From assembly GCF_000219875.1 (NCBI RefSeq), contig NC_017167.1:2565361-2629360 (forward strand): a DNA stretch of 64,000 nucleotides. The letters run 5' to 3'. The notes under the pieces were generated by a model. That model had not been told where the DNA came from and did no database searches. It worked only from the letters and a program-made list of their open reading frames with translations. Origin of the DNA: Alicyclobacillus acidocaldarius subsp. acidocaldarius Tc-4-1. Lineage in GTDB: Bacteria; Bacillota; Bacilli; Alicyclobacillales; Alicyclobacillaceae. Below, piece by piece: positions 40,892-49,129 of this stretch; position 1 is the stretch's first letter; each line of letters opens with the position of its first letter. A program made the position numbers and the translations under genes.

Positions 40892-41122
40892 TCACCGCCT
40901 GCGGGCCAGCCACCACACCAGCGCGACGATGGCAATGACGAGAATGAGCGTGAACGGGATGTGGCGCGCAATGCCGTAGCCAATGCCAAATCCGAGCCCG
41001 TGCACCAGCCCGTTCACAAACATGTGACCCAGGCCATAACCTCCGTAACCGTAGCCATAGCTATGAGAAAAGAAACTTCTCGAAAACGCATGCGACGCTC
41101 CAAATCCTCGGAGCCCCCACAT
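40892..41122 (-). CDS. Small Gly/Tyr/His-rich membrane protein
   Basis: This 76-residue ORF has a Gly/Tyr/His-rich N-terminal half (SYGYGYGGYGLGH) and one C-terminal membrane helix followed by RRR, which suggests Nin topology relative to a positive-inside tail. ATG 41122 has GAGGGGG seven bases upstream, and a terminator follows the stop, so expression is credible. No family is recognised. It diverges from the multicopper oxidase pair. The His-rich segment could bind metal, but that is only speculation. Confidence 0.55.
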   Translation of the reverse strand: MWGLRGFGASHAFSRSFFSHSYGYGYGGYGLGHMFVNGLVHGLGFGIGYGIARHIPFTLILVIAIVALVWWLARRR

Positions 41123-41227: not shown

Positions 41228-42307
41228 TTGCGAAACAGGCGCCTGCGTCGAGCCGTTTGGGCAGCCATGTGGGGCTTTGGCGCCGTGTCCCTGGCTGGCA
41301 TCGGAGAGGCCGCGCTGCATCGCGCCGACGCGCAAATTGCAAACGAAGCCGCTTCGATGGCCATGCAGAACGCAACGAGCGACGACGGACCGCCGCCCAC
41401 GCCCCCGCCCGTTCTGACGAATGTCCAAATCCTACAAGAAGACCGGGACGCTGTCAACCTGATGAACGAGGTCGCGCTCACCCCGCGCATCCTGCCCGGC
41501 GGCGTCAAGCAATTCACGCTCACCGCATCCAAGTTCGGTTGGAACTTTTACCGAAACGTAAACCTGTGGGCCTGGGGCTACAACGGGCAAGTCCCCGGGC
41601 CGCTCATCCGCGTCCGCGTCGGCGATCGCGTCGAGATCGTCGTACACAACGATCTCCCCGAACCGACCACCATCCATTGGCACGGAATGGCGGTCCCAAA
41701 CGACATGGACGGGGTGCCAGGCTTTCCCGAGCCCGCCATTCAGCCGGGCGGCACCTTTGTCTACCGGTTCACCGTGACAAGTCAGATGATCGGCACGCAC
41801 TGGTATCACAGCCACTACGACGACGATTATCAGGTGGACGCTGGATTGAACGGCGTGATCATCGTCGATCCCAAAACACCCTCGCCGTCCATGCGCCACG
41901 TGCGCGACGTCCTGTTTGTGCTCGGCGCAGGTAAGCAGGACGGATCGGACAACGAGAACACGTTTCTCATCAACGGCAAGGCGTATCCGGACACCCCGCA
42001 GCTGACGGTGAAACGCGGCACGACGGTGTACATGCGAATTGTCAACGCATGTGCGGAGACGTTCCACGCGATGACCATCGATGGGTATGATGTGAAGATT
42101 GTGGCGCAGGACGGTCAGCTGCAGCCGGATCCGCAGACGGTCAGCGTCGTGTCCATCGCACCGAGCGAAACGGTGGATGTGGAGTTCACGGCGGATCAAA
42201 CCGGCACCTTCCCGTTTTACGACACCGTGGCGAGCTCGCTCATCAATCCGAATGACACCGTGGACCCCGTGGGTGGCATGATGACGCTCATCCACGTGGT
42301 CCCGTGA
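41228..42307 (+). CDS. Exported two-domain multicopper oxidase homologue A (keeps HxHG and HxH motifs only)
   Basis: The 359-residue product starts with TTG 41228, eight bases after GAGGAGG, and has a basic signal peptide (RNRRLRR, hydrophobic core, ADAQ). The N-terminal cupredoxin domain is intact, with TIHWHGM (His150, His152) and GTHWYHSHYD (His194, His196), half of a trinuclear copper site. In the C-terminal domain the expected HxxHxH is reduced to FHAMTIDG and the HCHxxxH motif is missing (FPFYDTVASSL), so neither a type 1 site nor the rest of the cluster can form within one chain. The gene downstream, of equal length and 11 bases away, has the opposite set. Two-domain oxidases are known to build their trinuclear sites between subunits. 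Confidence 0.82.
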   Translation: MRNRRLRRAVWAAMWGFGAVSLAGIGEAALHRADAQIANEAASMAMQNATSDDGPPPTPPPVLTNVQILQEDRDAVNLMNEVALTPRILPGGVKQFTLTASKFGWNFYRNVNLWAWGYNGQVPGPLIRVRVGDRVEIVVHNDLPEPTTIHWHGMAVPNDMDGVPGFPEPAIQPGGTFVYRFTVTSQMIGTHWYHSHYDDDYQVDAGLNGVIIVDPKTPSPSMRHVRDVLFVLGAGKQDGSDNENTFLINGKAYPDTPQLTVKRGTTVYMRIVNACAETFHAMTIDGYDVKIVAQDGQLQPDPQTVSVVSIAPSETVDVEFTADQTGTFPFYDTVASSLINPNDTVDPVGGMMTLIHVVP

Positions 42308-42318
42308 GGAGGTGGACC

Positions 42319-43401
42319 ATGCGCCGAACCGTCCCAGCTCTGGTTGCAGCACTCGGCGCCTGCGCGTCGCTCGCCCTCGCCTGGGTCCACGCGTCGCCCG
42401 TCCTGGGCGCGGGCGCCAAGGTGGCGTCCACGAGCATGTCCATGGCGCCGACGAGCACCATGGGATCGCTCCTCGTGCCGGAAGGCGTTCCCGACGCGGG
42501 CCCGCTGTCCATCACCCCTGCTCTCATTCGCGAACAAAACGCAGACGCCGACCGGGTCATGGACGAGCAGGGCATGACGTCGCAAATGCTGCCCGGAGGC
42601 ATCAAGCGGTTCACGCTCGTCGCGAGCGAGGTGAACTGGTACCTGTATCCGGGCAAGTCGGTCGTCGCGTGCGGATACAACGGGCAGGTGCCAGGCCCTG
42701 TCATCCGCGTGCGCGTCGGCGATCGCGTCCAAATCCTCCTGAAGAACGAGCTGAATGAACCCACCACCCTGAACTTCCCGGGTCTCCCGCTGCCGGCGTC
42801 CCAACTTGGCATCGGCGGCGTGACCGAGCGGCCCGTCCCGCCGGGCGGCGAGCGGTTGTACAGTTTCACGGTGACGCCGGACATGGTCGGCACGCACCTG
42901 TACGAGAGCGGCACCGACATGGCGAGCGAGATTGATCAGGGCCTGCACGGGGTGCTTCTGGTCGATCCGGCGCGCGGACCCCTCTACCCTTTCGCCAAGG
43001 TGGACGCGCTCTTTGAAATCGACGCGTGGATGGTGGACGGATCGACCACCGAGAACGCATTCGGCCTGGACGGGAAACCGTATCCCAACGCGCCCCAACT
43101 GACCGTGCCGTACGGAAGCCGCGTCGTGCTGCGCATCGTGAACGCGAGCAGCATGTGTTATCACGCCATGCACGTGCACGAGACGACCTTTTGGCTCCTG
43201 GCGGAAGATGGGCACCCGCTGCCCGTTCCGCGCCCGATGAACGTGCTCGCCATCGCGCCGGGCGAGACGGCCGATATCGAATTTCCCGCCGACGTGCGCG
43301 GAGACTGGATGTTTCACTGTCACATCCTCGACCACATGATGAATCCGGACGACGAGGTCGACATGATGGGGGGACTGGTCACGTTCATTCACGTGAAATG
43401 A
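42319..43401 (+). CDS. Exported two-domain multicopper oxidase homologue B (keeps HxxHxH and HCHxxxH motifs only)
   Basis: This 360-residue paralogue of the gene above has a signal peptide (RRTVPALVAALGACASLALAW) and the same segments CGYNGQVPGPVIRVRVGDRV and VGTHLYESG, but the copper motifs of domain 1 are gone: TLNFPGL replaces TIHWHGM and HLYESG replaces HWYHSH. In contrast domain 2 is complete: CYHAMHVHE (His282, His285, His287) and MFHCHILDHMM (His333, Cys334, His335, His339). Alone it could hold a type 1 copper but not a full trinuclear cluster. ATG 42319 has GAGGAGGTG six bases upstream. A heteromeric enzyme with A is the natural inference; an electron-transfer cupredoxin is the alternative. 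Confidence 0.82.
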   Translation: MRRTVPALVAALGACASLALAWVHASPVLGAGAKVASTSMSMAPTSTMGSLLVPEGVPDAGPLSITPALIREQNADADRVMDEQGMTSQMLPGGIKRFTLVASEVNWYLYPGKSVVACGYNGQVPGPVIRVRVGDRVQILLKNELNEPTTLNFPGLPLPASQLGIGGVTERPVPPGGERLYSFTVTPDMVGTHLYESGTDMASEIDQGLHGVLLVDPARGPLYPFAKVDALFEIDAWMVDGSTTENAFGLDGKPYPNAPQLTVPYGSRVVLRIVNASSMCYHAMHVHETTFWLLAEDGHPLPVPRPMNVLAIAPGETADIEFPADVRGDWMFHCHILDHMMNPDDEVDMMGGLVTFIHVK

Positions 43402-43503: not shown

Positions 43504-45030
43504 TCAGTGCGGAATCTCGCCGAGCATCGTCACACCCGACTGGATCTGCACCTGATTCTCCACAAGGTTCGAGGTGTTCTGAATCTGCGGCGGCTGGTCT
43601 GCCGTGATGCTGACGTCGTTCAGCGCGATGTTCGAGATGGGTGCGTTCGGCAGGCCATTCATGTAGATGGACTGGCCCGCGTACTCGCAGCTCACGTTCG
43701 AAATGGTCATGTTCTCAAACTGCGGCACGTACGAGTTTGGCCCGGGAGCCTCAAGCGAAGACGTGTCCGCCCCGTTGTCCACATAGCCGTCGTCGAAGGT
43801 GATGGCGGCTCCACTGATGTCCCGCATGACGATGTCATCCATGTAGATGTCCTCCACCAGCCCACCCTTGCCCACGCCGCTCTTGAAGCGCAGGCCCGAC
43901 TCCGTGCCATCGTACACGTCGCCCGTGACCCAGACGTCCCGGATGCCGCCGTCCGTGTAACTGCCGACGGCGAGGCCGCTGTGGCCGTTGTGCACGATGC
44001 AGTCCGCCACGACGACGTCCTGCTCGTTGAACACTCCCGCAGCGTCGTTCCCGCTCGACTCCAACGCGATGCCATCGTCCCCCGTGTCGATCACGTCGCG
44101 ATACAAGACGACCGTGTCATCGGCCGAGACGTCAATTCCGTCCGTGTTCTGCCCGTACCACGGGTTGCGGATGTTCACATCGTCGATGACCACGTCCTTG
44201 GAGGTGTTCACCTTCACAGTCGCAAACGGCGAATTTTCAAAGGTGACGCCCTGGAGCCACACGCCTTGGCACCCCTGGAAGTACACCATGTACGGCCGGA
44301 GGTAGTCCTTCACCTGCAGGTAGTCCTGATACGTCATGTTCGGATGCGCCTTGATATACGCCTGGGCGTTTGCACCCTGCGCCGTCGGCCACCAGGTGCT
44401 TCCGTCTGGCGTCACCACGCCCCCCGACGCCACGAGCGCATTCCACTGTTCCGCCGAGAGCTTCGACTTCTCCACCGGCCGCCACGAGTTGCCGGCACCG
44501 TCGATCACGCCGTGACCCGTGATGGCGACATCCACCGCGTCCGTCGCGCTGATGGGCGATTGAACGATGTAGGCGCTCCCGCTCGGGACGAGCGGATACA
44601 GGTCGTGATCGCCCGAAAACTGGAGCTGGGCGCCGGACTCCACGTTGAGGTCGACGTGACTCTTCAGCACGATGGGACCGGTGACCCAATAGCCCGGCGG
44701 AATGTCGACGATGCCGCCGCCGTGTTGGCTGGCTGCGTCGATGGCCGCTTGAATGGCCTGGGTGTTGACCTGCCCGATGCCCGGCTTCGCGCCGTATTCG
44801 GTGATGTCGTAGACGCGGGGCACGATGTTCGGCAACGACGGGACGGGCATGGCGAACGGCGCGCCGTGCAGGACCTGGGCGAGAGAAGCGTCGAGATCGC
44901 CCGCCTGCGCGACGAGATCGGCCACGTTGTCGGCCTGGGCGAAGCGCGCGTGAGCGGTCCAGCCGGTGGCGGCGGCCGCGACCAGCGCGAGGCTCGCGCC
45001 TGCCGAGAGACTCCGTTTCCACCTAGGCAC
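43504..45030 (-). CDS. Secreted glycoside hydrolase family 28 (polygalacturonase-like)
   Basis: From GTG 45030 the protein has 508 residues, with a signal peptide (RWKRSLSAG, hydrophobic core, AHA) and a pectin-lyase-like beta-helix. The GH28 active-site signatures are visible in order: NTDGID, TGDDGIALE, HNGHSGLAVGS and RFKSG. The family hydrolyses alpha-1,4-galacturonide or rhamnogalacturonan bonds by inversion. The start was chosen because AAGGAGG lies eight bases before GTG 45030. It is the last gene of the pectin-type operon with an ABC sugar importer, so its products are probably the imported sugars. Exo versus endo action cannot be decided. Confidence 0.88.
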   Translation of the reverse strand: MPRWKRSLSAGASLALVAAAATGWTAHARFAQADNVADLVAQAGDLDASLAQVLHGAPFAMPVPSLPNIVPRVYDITEYGAKPGIGQVNTQAIQAAIDAASQHGGGIVDIPPGYWVTGPIVLKSHVDLNVESGAQLQFSGDHDLYPLVPSGSAYIVQSPISATDAVDVAITGHGVIDGAGNSWRPVEKSKLSAEQWNALVASGGVVTPDGSTWWPTAQGANAQAYIKAHPNMTYQDYLQVKDYLRPYMVYFQGCQGVWLQGVTFENSPFATVKVNTSKDVVIDDVNIRNPWYGQNTDGIDVSADDTVVLYRDVIDTGDDGIALESSGNDAAGVFNEQDVVVADCIVHNGHSGLAVGSYTDGGIRDVWVTGDVYDGTESGLRFKSGVGKGGLVEDIYMDDIVMRDISGAAITFDDGYVDNGADTSSLEAPGPNSYVPQFENMTISNVSCEYAGQSIYMNGLPNAPISNIALNDVSITADQPPQIQNTSNLVENQVQIQSGVTMLGEIPH

Positions 45031-45035
45031 GCATG

Positions 45036-45896
45036 TCACCTCCTTTCGCGGTCATCCGCGCAGGCCCGTGGTGGCGATGCCGCGGACGACGTACTTCTGC
45101 AGGAAGAAAAGATAAGGAAGAGCGGAATGAGCGACACGGTGGACATGGCGAACAGCGGCCCCCACTCCTCCTGCGCGACGGCGTTCGCGAGCGACTCCAG
45201 CCCGAGCGGCACCGTGAACTTCTGCGCCGAATTCAAGTAGATGAGTTGAGAGAAAAAGTCGTCCCAGCACCAGATGAAACTGAAGATGGCCGTGGTGATG
45301 AGCGCCGGCACGATGAGCGGCAGGATGACGCGCACAAACAGCGTGAAGGCATTGCAACCGTCGATCTTCGCCGCCTCGTCCAATTCTTTGGGCAGCCCCC
45401 GGATGAATTGCACGATGAGAAAGATGAAGAACGGACTACCAAAGAACGCGGGCACGATGAGCGGATAATACGTATTGATCCAGCCCAGATAGTGAAACAT
45501 CGCGTACTGGGGAATGAGCGTGACCTGCGTCGGCAGCATCATCGTGATCATCATGATGCCAAACAGAATGGATTTCCCTCGAAACGTGAAGCGCGCGAAC
45601 CCGAACGCGACGATGGCGGACGAGATGACCGTGCCGAGAGACACCAGACAGGACACCAACAGCGAATGTAGGATGAACGTGCCAAACGGTAGGCCAGGAA
45701 TCGCGTTCCAACCTTGCGGGTAATTTGCGAGCGTCCAGTGCTTGGGCCAAAACGAAGCACTGGAGAAGATCTCGTTGGTCGGCTTGAACGAGCCAAACAC
45801 CATCCAGAGCACGGGATAGATGAGGAAGAACCCGATGACCACGAGCACGGCGTGGGCGAGAACGATTCCGCGCCTCGTGCGAATGGTTCCCGTCAC
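45036..45896 (-). CDS. ABC sugar transporter permease (MalG type) with C-terminal frameshift
   Basis: The inner-membrane permease has about six helices and the EAA loop ELDEAAKIDGCNAFTLFVRVILPL that docks to an ATPase. The reading frame runs to 45036, but its last 23 residues (from SSCRST) are unlike the family. The expected ending, LFFLQKYVVRGIATTGLRG, lies in the -1 frame and stops at 45052. The switch maps to a run of four A (45107-45110; T on the coding strand), where five would restore the frame. Either a real mutation or a base-call error explains this. GTG 45896 follows AGGAGGAGAGGG. It is fifth in the operon, after the MalF-type gene. Confidence 0.85.
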   Translation of the reverse strand: MTGTIRTRRGIVLAHAVLVVIGFFLIYPVLWMVFGSFKPTNEIFSSASFWPKHWTLANYPQGWNAIPGLPFGTFILHSLLVSCLVSLGTVISSAIVAFGFARFTFRGKSILFGIMMITMMLPTQVTLIPQYAMFHYLGWINTYYPLIVPAFFGSPFFIFLIVQFIRGLPKELDEAAKIDGCNAFTLFVRVILPLIVPALITTAIFSFIWCWDDFFSQLIYLNSAQKFTVPLGLESLANAVAQEEWGPLFAMSTVSLIPLFLIFSSCRSTSSAASPPRACADDRERR

Positions 45897-45915
45897 AGCC
45901 CTCTCCTCCTTTCCC

Positions 45916-46848
45916 TCAGGACTCGTAGTACACGTAGCGGCTTCCGAACCTGAACACCAAGAACGTCAGCACGCCCACCAACACCAGGAGGAACCAGGCC
46001 AGCGCCGACGCGTAGCCCATGTTCTGGAAGTTAAAGGCCTCCTCGTACAGGTAGAGCGCGAAAAACAGCGTCGCGTTCAGCGGCCCGCCGTCCGTGACGA
46101 TGTATCCCTGCGTGAACTGGGTGAACCCATTGATGATGGACATGATCAGGTTGAAGAAAATGACCGGCGACAACATGGGAATGGTGATGCGAAAGAACCG
46201 GTACAGGCGGCCCGCGCCGTCCACGATGGCGGCCTCATACAGCGACTCGGGAATCTGCTTCAGTCCTGCCACGAAGATCATCATCGCCGAACCGAACTGC
46301 CAAGCCTGCAGCATGGCGAGCGTGAACAGGGCCGTGCGTGGTTCGGCGAGCCAATTGGGCCCGTGAATGCCGACGAGCGCCAGGCCTTTGTTGATGAGAC
46401 CGTCGGGCCCAAACATCTGTTGCCACAGGTAGGCGACAGCGACGCTCGTGCCGATGAGCGACGGAACGTAGTACACCGTCCGGTACACGCCGATGCCTTT
46501 GACCTCGAGACTGAGGAGCAGAGCGATGGCGAGGGCGACCACCATCTTGACAGGCACGGAGATCAAGATGTACTCCAGCGTGTCCACGAGCGAAGTGGCA
46601 AACAACTGGCTCTGCGTGAACATGTGCACATAATTCTCGAGACCTATCCACCTGGGTGGCTGTAGGAGATTGTAGTTGGTAAATGAAAGGTAGAGCGAGA
46701 CCAGGATGGGCCCGAGCGAAAAGACCACCAAGCCGAACATCCATGGGCTCAGAAACAGATAGGCGACCTTCTCGTTGCGCGGCCGCACGGCCTTCGCGGC
46801 CTCGCCGTTCGCTTGGACATTGGCTTTGGTCGAGGTTGCCACAGCCAC
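45916..46848 (-). CDS. ABC sugar transporter permease (MalF type)
   Basis: The 310-residue protein has six predicted membrane helices and the EAA loop ESLYEAAIVDGAGRLYRFFRITIPML. It starts with about 25 hydrophilic residues and then KVAYLFLSPWMFGLVVFSLGPI. It forms the translocation path together with the MalG-type permease 19 bases downstream. GTG 46848 with GGGGTGATC upstream is chosen; the longer frame to 46911 would overlap the hairpin and the end of the binding-protein gene. No ATP-binding subunit is encoded in the operon, so a shared MsmX-like ATPase elsewhere is likely. Confidence 0.87.
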   Translation of the reverse strand: MAVATSTKANVQANGEAAKAVRPRNEKVAYLFLSPWMFGLVVFSLGPILVSLYLSFTNYNLLQPPRWIGLENYVHMFTQSQLFATSLVDTLEYILISVPVKMVVALAIALLLSLEVKGIGVYRTVYYVPSLIGTSVAVAYLWQQMFGPDGLINKGLALVGIHGPNWLAEPRTALFTLAMLQAWQFGSAMMIFVAGLKQIPESLYEAAIVDGAGRLYRFFRITIPMLSPVIFFNLIMSIINGFTQFTQGYIVTDGGPLNATLFFALYLYEEAFNFQNMGYASALAWFLLVLVGVLTFLVFRFGSRYVYYES

Positions 46849-46871
46849 GCGATCACCCCGCTTTCCGGAAT

Positions 46872-46892
46872 GGCCCGGCGTTGCGCCGGGCC
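46872..46892 (-). promoter_or_regulatory. Intercistronic stem-loop after the sugar-binding-protein gene
   Basis: GGCCCGGCG (46872-46880) and CGCCGGGCC (46884-46892) form a perfect nine-base GC stem with a three-base loop, 15 bases after the binding-protein stop. There is no T-run, so partial termination or mRNA 3'-end protection, leaving more binding protein than permease, is likely. Confidence 0.6.
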
Positions 46893-46907
46893 CCGTCCTC
46901 GGAGACG

Positions 46908-48233
46908 TCATTCACCGCCGTTCTGCAGGAGGTCGTTCGCCTCCTGCATAAACTGTTCGGCGCCCTGCTGAGCCGTCTCCTTGCCGTATTGCACAGCCTG
47001 GACCATGTTCGCGAAATCCTGGTCGATTTCGTTGTTCGCTTGAGGTGGTGGCGGATCAATCGGAGTCGCCACCTTGAGTGCTTCGTCTGTAAGCGTGAAT
47101 TCCTGCTGCTCAGGTCGTGTCAGCCCGGCTCTTTCAAGCGCAGCGCGGACCGAAGACGACACCGGAATTCCTCGGTCCAAACCGAGCGCTTTTCCTGCAG
47201 AGTCATTGTTCAGCAAGAAATTGACGAACAACTCTGCCTGCTCTGGGTACCTTGTCTTGGAGTAAATGCTCCAAAACTGACTTGGCTTCAGATAAAGTCC
47301 CTCTGGTCCCCCAGGCCGGGTGGGCGGCAAGGACATTCCGAGGGGTTTTGTCATCTCGCTCTGGAAGCTCACAATGTATGCGTCCCATGTCATTTCCGCG
47401 AGAGACTTACCCGGAACCATAGGATCAGTGGGGTCAGCAGCTTGCTTGATTAGTGAAGTGACCGTTCCGGGTGGCACCGCTCCCTCTTTGCGCAGATTTG
47501 CCCAGTAATTTAGATACGCGACGAGTGTACTTTGGGTAAATCCAAGCTTCGTCCCGGCGGCGTTGTATAGATGCTGTCCGTACTGACGAGTCCAATAGCC
47601 GAACGTCTGCCAGTTTTCGTCGTCATCTTCCGCCCACCTACCAGTAATCTTGTGTACTTTCTCCAATAAATTAGCCCACTGGTCCCATGACATGCGCTGA
47701 CCGTGATACCCAGCCTTTGCGAATGCGTTCTGGTCGTATATCACGCTGTAACAGTCAATTGCATTTGGAATACCATATAATCCACCATTGATGTAACCAC
47801 TTCGGAGAACGCTTGGACTAATGGTAGCAAGGTCGAGTCCCTTCACACCCTTTAAATCCAGCAATTGCCCCTCTTTGGCGTACGCCTCGATGTAATCGTA
47901 ATCCATCTGCATAATATCCGGCGCGTTGCCGCCCGCGACCTCGGTGGAGAGCTTCGTGAAGTACTGATTGAACGGCCCGCCGAATTCGGTCTGGATGTGA
48001 ATGTTCGGATAGACTTTCTCAAACGCTTTCACCGCCGCAAGCGTAACCGCTTCTTCCTTCGCGTCACCCCAGAAGCCAAAGGTAAGCGTGACGACCGGCT
48101 TCGAGTCCGCGCTGCCCGCCGCCTGCCCGGCTTGCGACCCGCTCGAACCGCTCTGTGTCGCGGCGGTTCCGCAGCCCGCCACGACCAACGCGGCCGCGGC
48201 GCTCGCCGTCCATGTCCATCTCTTTTTTCGCAT
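46908..48233 (-). CDS. ABC transporter sugar-binding lipoprotein (family 1)
   Basis: The 441-residue protein has a lipoprotein signal (lipobox VAGC, Cys21), a Gly/Ser linker, and then the extracellular solute-binding family 1 fold: VVTLTFGFWGDAKEE, AFEKVYPNIHIQTEFGGPFNQYFTKLS, GNAPDIMQMD. ATG 48233 has GAGGAGG upstream. It captures oligosaccharides, probably galacturonides given the GH28 neighbour. The part encoded at about 47050-47880 is clearly AT-richer (about 42-52 percent GC in sampled lines) than both ends of the same gene and the surrounding DNA, with tttaaa/ataatcca-type stretches, which suggests a recombined segment. Confidence 0.88.
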   Translation of the reverse strand: MRKKRWTWTASAAAALVVAGCGTAATQSGSSGSQAGQAAGSADSKPVVTLTFGFWGDAKEEAVTLAAVKAFEKVYPNIHIQTEFGGPFNQYFTKLSTEVAGGNAPDIMQMDYDYIEAYAKEGQLLDLKGVKGLDLATISPSVLRSGYINGGLYGIPNAIDCYSVIYDQNAFAKAGYHGQRMSWDQWANLLEKVHKITGRWAEDDDENWQTFGYWTRQYGQHLYNAAGTKLGFTQSTLVAYLNYWANLRKEGAVPPGTVTSLIKQAADPTDPMVPGKSLAEMTWDAYIVSFQSEMTKPLGMSLPPTRPGGPEGLYLKPSQFWSIYSKTRYPEQAELFVNFLLNNDSAGKALGLDRGIPVSSSVRAALERAGLTRPEQQEFTLTDEALKVATPIDPPPPQANNEIDQDFANMVQAVQYGKETAQQGAEQFMQEANDLLQNGGE

Positions 48234-48250
48234 GCGGATTCCTCCTCGTT

Positions 48251-49129
48251 TCACGTTGTCACACGCTTGAGACCGACACCCATCAACTGCCACAAAACCT
48301 CCGGATACGGCTCATGACCCCCAGATTGTGCAAGAAACATCGCGCCGTTTGTCACGCCCATGGCCTCGTACGCCGCTTTGACGGCCGCAAACGCTGCACG
48401 CGCACCTTCGAACGGAAACACGCCGTCGCGTTCGCCATGCACAATGGTCAGGCGCCGCGGCGCCACGAGCGCCGCCACATCCCCCCAATCGCCGAAGTTG
48501 AGAAGACCCGGTACGTAGTTGCACAAGCAATGTCGCGTTGCAAGGAGCGAATGCCGGGCGGTGCACATCGCCGACAGGAGGATCAGGTGGCGGACCCGCG
48601 AATCGCAGGCCGCGTGAAACAGCGCGGCCGTGCCGCCGCCTGAAAATCCCGCCGTGACAAGGCTCTCCATGTCGAAGCGCCCGTCCATCTCCATCGCGTC
48701 CAGGAGCTCTATCAGGTCCCGGACGCGGTCGCCGAGGAGCGTCCGGCCGACGAGCAATCGCTGCCGCGCGAACCGCTCACAGCTGTGCTCCAGGCCCAGG
48801 GCGCGATCCGCCGGATCCATCGTGGCGCCAAACCCGCGCAAGGACGGGAGCACCACCGCAAAGCCCGCGTCACGCAGCAGTTCCGCAACGGGTGCGCCCT
48901 TGACGTACACCTCGTTCGCGCTGCGGAAGTAATCGTAGCCGAGCGGCGAATGGCCATGGATCAACACGGCGGTGGGATAGCCGCCCGCGGGCGCCGTGCC
49001 CTCCGGAAGGAGCACGTGGACTTCGCGATCCGCCACGAGTTCGCTCAACGTCCTCCGCTTCTCCGACCGCTCCAGGCCGAGCAGCCGAGCGAGGGCCTCG
49101 ACTCGTTCGCTTGCCGCCCCCCGCGACAC
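48251..49129 (-). CDS. Alpha/beta hydrolase, carbohydrate-esterase-like
   Basis: The 292-residue protein has an alpha/beta-hydrolase core: PTAVLIHGHSPLGYDYF (oxyanion region), the nucleophile elbow TAGFSGGGTAALF, the acid Asp in HGERDGVFPFEG, and the base His in SGGHEPYP. There is no signal peptide, so it acts in the cytoplasm. In this operon it may deacetylate or demethylate imported oligosaccharides. The start GTG 49129 is chosen because GGGAGGG lies seven bases upstream. It fits 17 bases after the Gfo/Idh stop and 17 before the binding-protein gene, indicating one transcript. Confidence 0.78.
   Translation of the reverse strand: MSRGAASERVEALARLLGLERSEKRRTLSELVADREVHVLLPEGTAPAGGYPTAVLIHGHSPLGYDYFRSANEVYVKGAPVAELLRDAGFAVVLPSLRGFGATMDPADRALGLEHSCERFARQRLLVGRTLLGDRVRDLIELLDAMEMDGRFDMESLVTAGFSGGGTAALFHAACDSRVRHLILLSAMCTARHSLLATRHCLCNYVPGLLNFGDWGDVAALVAPRRLTIVHGERDGVFPFEGARAAFAAVKAAYEAMGVTNGAMFLAQSGGHEPYPEVLWQLMGVGLKRVTT

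Follow-up and report, generated by a model that had tools for sequence, protein, structure and literature searches.

Complementary copper-ligand loss in two tandem two-domain oxidase paralogues of Alicyclobacillus suggests a heteromeric enzyme with one shared trinuclear site

Can two adjacent genes, each encoding a multicopper oxidase-like protein with part of its copper ligands missing, together make one working enzyme? The question is raised by genes A and B of Alicyclobacillus acidocaldarius subsp. acidocaldarius Tc-4-1, found in the 64,000-nucleotide stretch of DNA analyzed here, called the window (G000:C1:2565361-2629360, from a genome of 3.12 Mb in one contig). The reading frames bear out the initial annotation, which gave 359 residues for A, 360 for B and a gap of 11 bases between the genes, both on the plus strand. 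A scores 150.4 bits with Cu-oxidase_3 and 58.1 bits with Cu-oxidase_2, and B scores 90 and 72.1 bits, all above the Pfam cut-offs of 21 and 20.4 bits. Solved two-domain oxidases, including 2zwn, match both proteins, and each has two domains, not the three or six of larger oxidases. As each gene keeps one half of the site and has lost the other, a working enzyme probably requires the two proteins together. Judged from their sequences, A and B are likely to be obligate subunits of one exported oxidase, with one trinuclear centre per complex.

Eleven ligand positions were scored: domain 1 has four of them and domain 2 the other seven. A of the window has all four domain-1 copper His and one of the seven domain-2 ligands (H280, in the type-1 His column), and in B the seven domain-2 ligands are complete and the four domain-1 His all gone. 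Neither chain has the full set, with 5 of 11 in A and 7 of 11 in B, which is complete only when A and B are taken together. Every residue that the initial annotation had named in the kept and lost copper motifs was found at its position (Table 1). The column of Met 350 in B, which we take to be the axial type-1 copper ligand, holds Met in all 11 B proteins of the family, in 1 of 11 A proteins and in 12 of 17 single-gene relatives.

Table 1. Features of the A/B gene pair in the window and of related loci.
Feature	Position	Strand	Basis
Gene A, two-domain multicopper oxidase paralogue, TTG start, 359 aa	41228..42307	+	reading frame, domain matches, ligand table
A: HWHG (H150, H152), domain-1 ligands, kept in 11/11 A	41675..41686	+	ligand alignment
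A: HSH (H194, H196), domain-1 ligands, kept in 11/11 A	41807..41815	+	ligand alignment
A: HAMTID (280-285), degenerate HxxHxH; first His kept, others T and D in 11/11 A	42065..42082	+	ligand alignment
A: YDTVASS (331-337), degenerate HCHxxxH; type-1 Cys gone in 11/11 A	42218..42238	+	ligand alignment
GGAGG, ribosome-binding-like, between A stop and B start	42308..42312	+	sequence; coupling in relatives
Gene B, two-domain multicopper oxidase paralogue, ATG start, 360 aa	42319..43401	+	reading frame, domain matches, ligand table
B: TLNFPG (150-155), degenerate HxHG; ligand columns N and P	42766..42783	+	ligand alignment
B: HLYESG (193-198), degenerate second domain-1 motif; ligand columns E and G	42895..42912	+	ligand alignment
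B: HAMHVH (H282, H285, H287), intact in 11/11 B	43162..43179	+	ligand alignment
B: HCHILDH (H333, C334, H335, H339), intact in 11/11 B	43315..43335	+	ligand alignment
B: Met 350, column taken as axial type-1 ligand	43366..43368	+	alignment
785-residue fused protein, A. cellulosilyticus	L102:5500-7857	+	sequence
785-residue fused protein, A. cellulosilyticus	L066:1386-3743	-	sequence
Phosphoesterase-type gene upstream of A	L071:5430-7079; like genes in L072-L076		PF04185 in two scanned

The search of related genomes for the pair, which the initial annotation had proposed, returned intact adjacent A-B pairs in 11 of the 41 genomes of the family (G000, G002, G003, G007, G008, G010, G013, G014, G021, G022 and G035), with the same ligand split in all of them. 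The 22 A and B proteins were aligned with 17 single-gene relatives, nine from the family and eight from a phylum sample, and with the two units of a fused protein discussed below. Every A has four of four domain-1 and one of seven domain-2 ligands, and every B has seven of seven domain-2 ligands and none or one of the four in domain 1; where one is left (6 of 11 B), it is the first His. Each of the eleven positions is therefore filled by at least one partner. The type-1 motif HCHxxxH of domain 2 is found in all 11 B and in no A. The His that never vary within the aligned core are, in A, the four domain-1 ligands plus the type-1 His and a GTH His, and, in B, the six His ligands of domain 2 plus one His in GTH and another in GLHG. 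A and B of the window are only 53-61% identical to their counterparts in six distant pairs.

In the ligand table, none of the 17 single-gene relatives lacks any of the eleven ligands, and 10 of 13 further relatives are likewise complete; the other three were left out of this count, being three-domain enzymes of about 500 residues that were misaligned by the cut, and their motifs were read by pattern. A relative in G152, whose frame loses reading near its end, was kept out of both the tree and the ligand table. Six weaker matches of two-domain type in the family were left unaligned (G001:C16, G003:C1:3486086, G013:C239, G021:C5:181961, G022:C3 and the frame-broken G033:C51), as was the short match G020:C19. 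Recurrence in 11 of 11 pairs, together with a separate one-chain version, makes the ligand split more than chance. As the pairs share one origin, the independent events number two, not twelve, and the weight of the conservation lies in the long retention of both halves. What would mark a shared-site heteromer at the level of sequence, i.e., that each product gives one half and that the halves are conserved together, is found in all 11 pairs.

An A-type or B-type copy standing alone, which the initial annotation had set down as counter-evidence if fully active, was not seen among the strong matches inspected. The pair can be lost, since one genome (G012; L080, G012:C11:1-14000) holds only frame-broken fragments of both A and B at the place of its relatives' pair. 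An altered ligand in a lone copy does also occur, as shown by a relative on a Deinococcus plasmid with Q for H at one HCH position. Wider genome sets, which overlap, were searched with one query and an E-value limit. No further split pairs were seen among the matches inspected in the order (59 genomes), in a sample of 398 genomes of the phylum, in 154 genomes of another class and in 4 genomes of another order, or among the matches listed and inspected in a class sample.

The origin of the split was addressed with a tree of 41 rows, in which the last 300 residues of each protein were used and the ligand columns were included. All A form one group and all B another (support 100/100 each), and both sit in a larger group (100/100) with the intact singles of G033, G028 and G001. 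Grouping A and B together gave p 0.427, so that a sister relationship between them is neither rejected nor shown by the sequences.

The one-chain version is found in Alicyclobacillus cellulosilyticus (G028), where a chain of 785 residues consists of an N-terminal cupredoxin domain and two oxidase units. Unit 1 has four of four domain-1 and one of seven domain-2 ligands, and unit 2 has one of four and seven of seven. The protein groups with cupredoxin-fused singles (100/99), on a branch distant from A and B. A common origin with the pair was rejected both for A with unit 1 (p 7e-49) and for B with unit 2 (p 7e-6), and the rejection holds although the ligand columns stayed in the tree. Therefore, the division arose twice and in the same order, and on the evidence of the tree only two independent origins of complementary loss are known. 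The replacements are also alike: HxxHxH has become HxxTxD in all 11 A and HxxSxD in unit 1, and HxH has become HxQ in 6 of 11 B and in unit 2. A tandem arrangement does not have to lead to such a division, as the two tandem two-domain oxidases of 366 and 365 residues in another family (L127, G921:C9:37500-44500) are both motif-complete.

Both A and B are under purifying selection. The dN/dS per domain ranges from 0.036 to 0.232 in four comparisons of close species (G000, G002, G008 and G014), in many of which dS is near or above 1, and is similar whether or not the domain carries a site. Among six divergent species, domains 1 and 2 are 66.1% and 63.0% identical in A and 62.1% and 69.5% identical in B, which suggests a slight tilt toward the active halves. 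Compared with three intact singles, the two domains show identities of 60.3% and 43.9% in A and of 54.1% and 58.0% in B. Domains that lack a site are nearly as constrained as the others and must have a job, which we can here call only structural. The gene order is A then B in all 11 pairs, and in the window and the ten pairs of its relatives B starts anywhere from 4 bases ahead of the end of the A stop to 11 bases beyond it.

Two-domain laccases form their trinuclear site where domain 1 of one subunit meets domain 2 of another subunit (PMC6854816). If this interface geometry applies here, domain 1 of A and domain 2 of B would form one full site, and no other junction would bring both halves together. 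We propose that a two-domain oxidase with type-1 copper in domain 2 duplicated to give A and B. A would supply the domain-1 half of the trinuclear site (four His), and B the domain-2 half (four His) as well as the type-1 site (two His, Cys and probably Met), while domain 2 of A and domain 1 of B would have turned structural. The substrate would reduce the type-1 copper in B, which would hand electrons on to the trinuclear site at the A-B junction for the reduction of O2 to water. The complex might be a ring of three two-domain subunits, A2B or AB2, and would then contain a single active site. Such a stoichiometry is awkward, because A and B cannot alternate around three positions. The proposal of the initial annotation is supported in part: a duplication after which each copy lost a different half, and an A-B heteromer with a single type of site, are well backed by conservation, purifying selection, gene order and coupling and the independent one-chain version; the A-B contact, the ring, its stoichiometry and O2 reduction are inferred. 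A metal ion as substrate is a weakly held guess.

Export, as claimed for both proteins, was judged by a hydrophobic N-terminal segment with a 19-residue mean above 1.5. This held fully for B, as all 11 B pass the cut, and in part for A, as 8 of 11 pass and the A of the window is one of the three that fail. A is therefore likely exported too, less clearly than B. The B proteins of G003, G007 and G013 have two hydrophobic N-terminal segments.

The split might also be explained by proteins that work apart, with B as a blue-copper electron-transfer protein, A as a copper-binding or scaffold protein, and neither reducing O2. B does have a complete type-1 site by motif, and its domain-1 loss would leave just that. 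However, the four domain-2 His of B and the four domain-1 His of A that serve only a trinuclear site would then remain unexplained in all 11 pairs, as would the constant pairing, the coupling and the fused version. A trinuclear site is unfinished in either protein alone, yet these His are invariant, which favours a shared site, and we consider separate functions unlikely.

The two proteins could instead form a heteromer whose joint site does something other than four-electron O2 reduction, such as nitrite reduction or copper storage or delivery. The copper nitrite reductase (NirK) model TIGR02376 does score A at 65.4 and B at 53.3 bits, but these values are far under its cut-off of 296.3, and A and B together have the ligands of an ordinary oxidase; such chemistry is, in our judgment, slightly less probable still than separate functions. 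That the pair is decaying after duplication, with no enzyme made, might be suggested by the broken fragments of both genes in G012. This is very improbable and was rejected, as the low dN/dS, the open frames in 11 pairs and the invariant ligands largely refute it. The shared trinuclear site is the reading we prefer.

How this enzyme would relate to known oxidases can be seen from their domain arrangements. Homotrimeric two-domain laccases (SLAC) are alike in their two cupredoxin domains, in the type-1 motif in domain 2 and in the expected inter-subunit trinuclear site (PMC6854816). However, one gene product gives both halves in SLAC, with three sites per trimer, while each half is confined to one paralogue in A/B. 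In three-domain laccases and CueO the site comes from domain 1 and the last domain, with a copper-free domain between, as in A/B, but these are one chain, and A and B (116.5 and 71.2 bits) score far under the cut-off of 525 of the CueO model NF008205. With the CopA-type model TIGR01480, they score 148 and 97.8 bits, below the cut-off of 478.95.

In ceruloplasmin and other six-domain oxidases, one trinuclear site is formed by the first and last domains and the other sites are lost; the site lies between domains 1 and 6 in ceruloplasmin, and between domains 2 and 3 in bacterial and algal six-domain proteins (PMC3600357). A then B resembles ceruloplasmin in having ligands on the first domain 1 and the last domain 2, although ceruloplasmin is one covalent six-domain chain and A/B are two separate two-domain chains. 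By this analogy, the A-B complex would best be read as a separable counterpart of the one-chain pseudo-trimer ceruloplasmin. The A. cellulosilyticus protein has the same complementary loss with the domain-1 giver first, but differs from A/B in joining both units in one chain, in its extra N-terminal cupredoxin domain and in its separate tree branch. The POXA3-type fungal heterodimeric laccase-like enzymes also have two different subunits; however, the partner is described as a small protein without an assigned function that adds stability and activity, and not as a half-site paralogue (PMC10741624).

PDB 9cck was considered as a heteromeric precedent and rejected. Both of its chain sequences match the same part of B, and the longer one has a further cupredoxin-like end, so we take them as two forms of one protein. 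Titles and abstract openings of the open-licence literature on heteromeric, two-domain, heterotrimeric and heterodimeric oxidases and their evolution yielded no such system, and those on Alicyclobacillus oxidases no such pair. Laccase-like oxidases of Alicyclobacillus are mentioned in passages of PMC9296663 that do not mention the A/B pair, and general background is found in PMC7036934 and PMC10707984. The two-domain oxidase is already known, and what would be new is one site divided between two paralogues.

The origin of single-site one-chain oxidases from multi-site trimers is an old question. In one scheme for one-site oxidases, a hypothetical six-domain ancestor had three trinuclear sites and later lost all but one of them (PMC3600357). 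Here, site loss is seen with the parts still separate genes, and separately within one chain. This makes the step testable by mixing, swapping and titrating subunits. If the proposal is true, it describes an oxidase with two half-sites that can be prepared apart and assembled at will, and possibly a living stage in the evolution of larger copper oxidases. For the full account, in which a single trinuclear site is obligately shared by two paralogous subunits in an A2B or AB2 ring, the same division evolved twice (as two genes and as one fused chain), and the pair is a living form of the step from three-site homotrimers to one-site single-chain oxidases such as three-domain laccases and ceruloplasmin, we see about an even chance.

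A third gene supplying complete motifs, which the initial annotation had named as a possible refutation, does exist: about 40 kb ahead of the window lies a three-domain oxidase of 575 aa. Four genomes with the pair (G003, G013, G021 and G022) hold another, unaligned two-domain-oxidase match. Both the 575-aa oxidase and these extra matches look like separate enzymes outside the A-B operon. Sequence clustering of the neighbour genes placed no third oxidase-like subunit beside the pair in the oxidase cluster. Directly upstream of A, 6 of 11 pairs (G003, G007, G013, G021, G022 and G035) have a gene from a single BLAST cluster, which is absent at that place in the other five; both members scanned are PF04185 phosphoesterases. 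The sole PF04185 match in the genome of the window lies elsewhere, away from the pair.

Several oxidases with added N-terminal parts were also observed. The intact singles of G028 and G001 have a ZIP-type N-terminal part, and two-domain oxidases with a ZIP-transporter-like N-terminal half were found at L078:3440-5284, L079:7592-9403, L106-L109 and L119:2140-3951; the ZIP Pfam match was tested in two such fusions and the others were judged by the look of the sequence. One ZIP-oxidase fusion lies on a Deinococcus plasmid beside metal transporters. Three scans of viral contigs gave one useful homologue, L104, a viral-collection contig (L104:951-2852) encoding 633 residues with a hydrophobic N-terminal part and a complete two-domain oxidase. 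Divergent from A, on the minus strand of the window (40892-41122), is a 76-residue Gly/Tyr/His-rich ORF with a hydrophobic end, and a similar small ORF occurs at the same place in L070. On the other side of the pair, also on the minus strand (43504-48293), lie a glycosyl hydrolase family 28 gene and ABC transporter genes (two permease and one binding-protein), a set that looks like one for pectin-sugar use.
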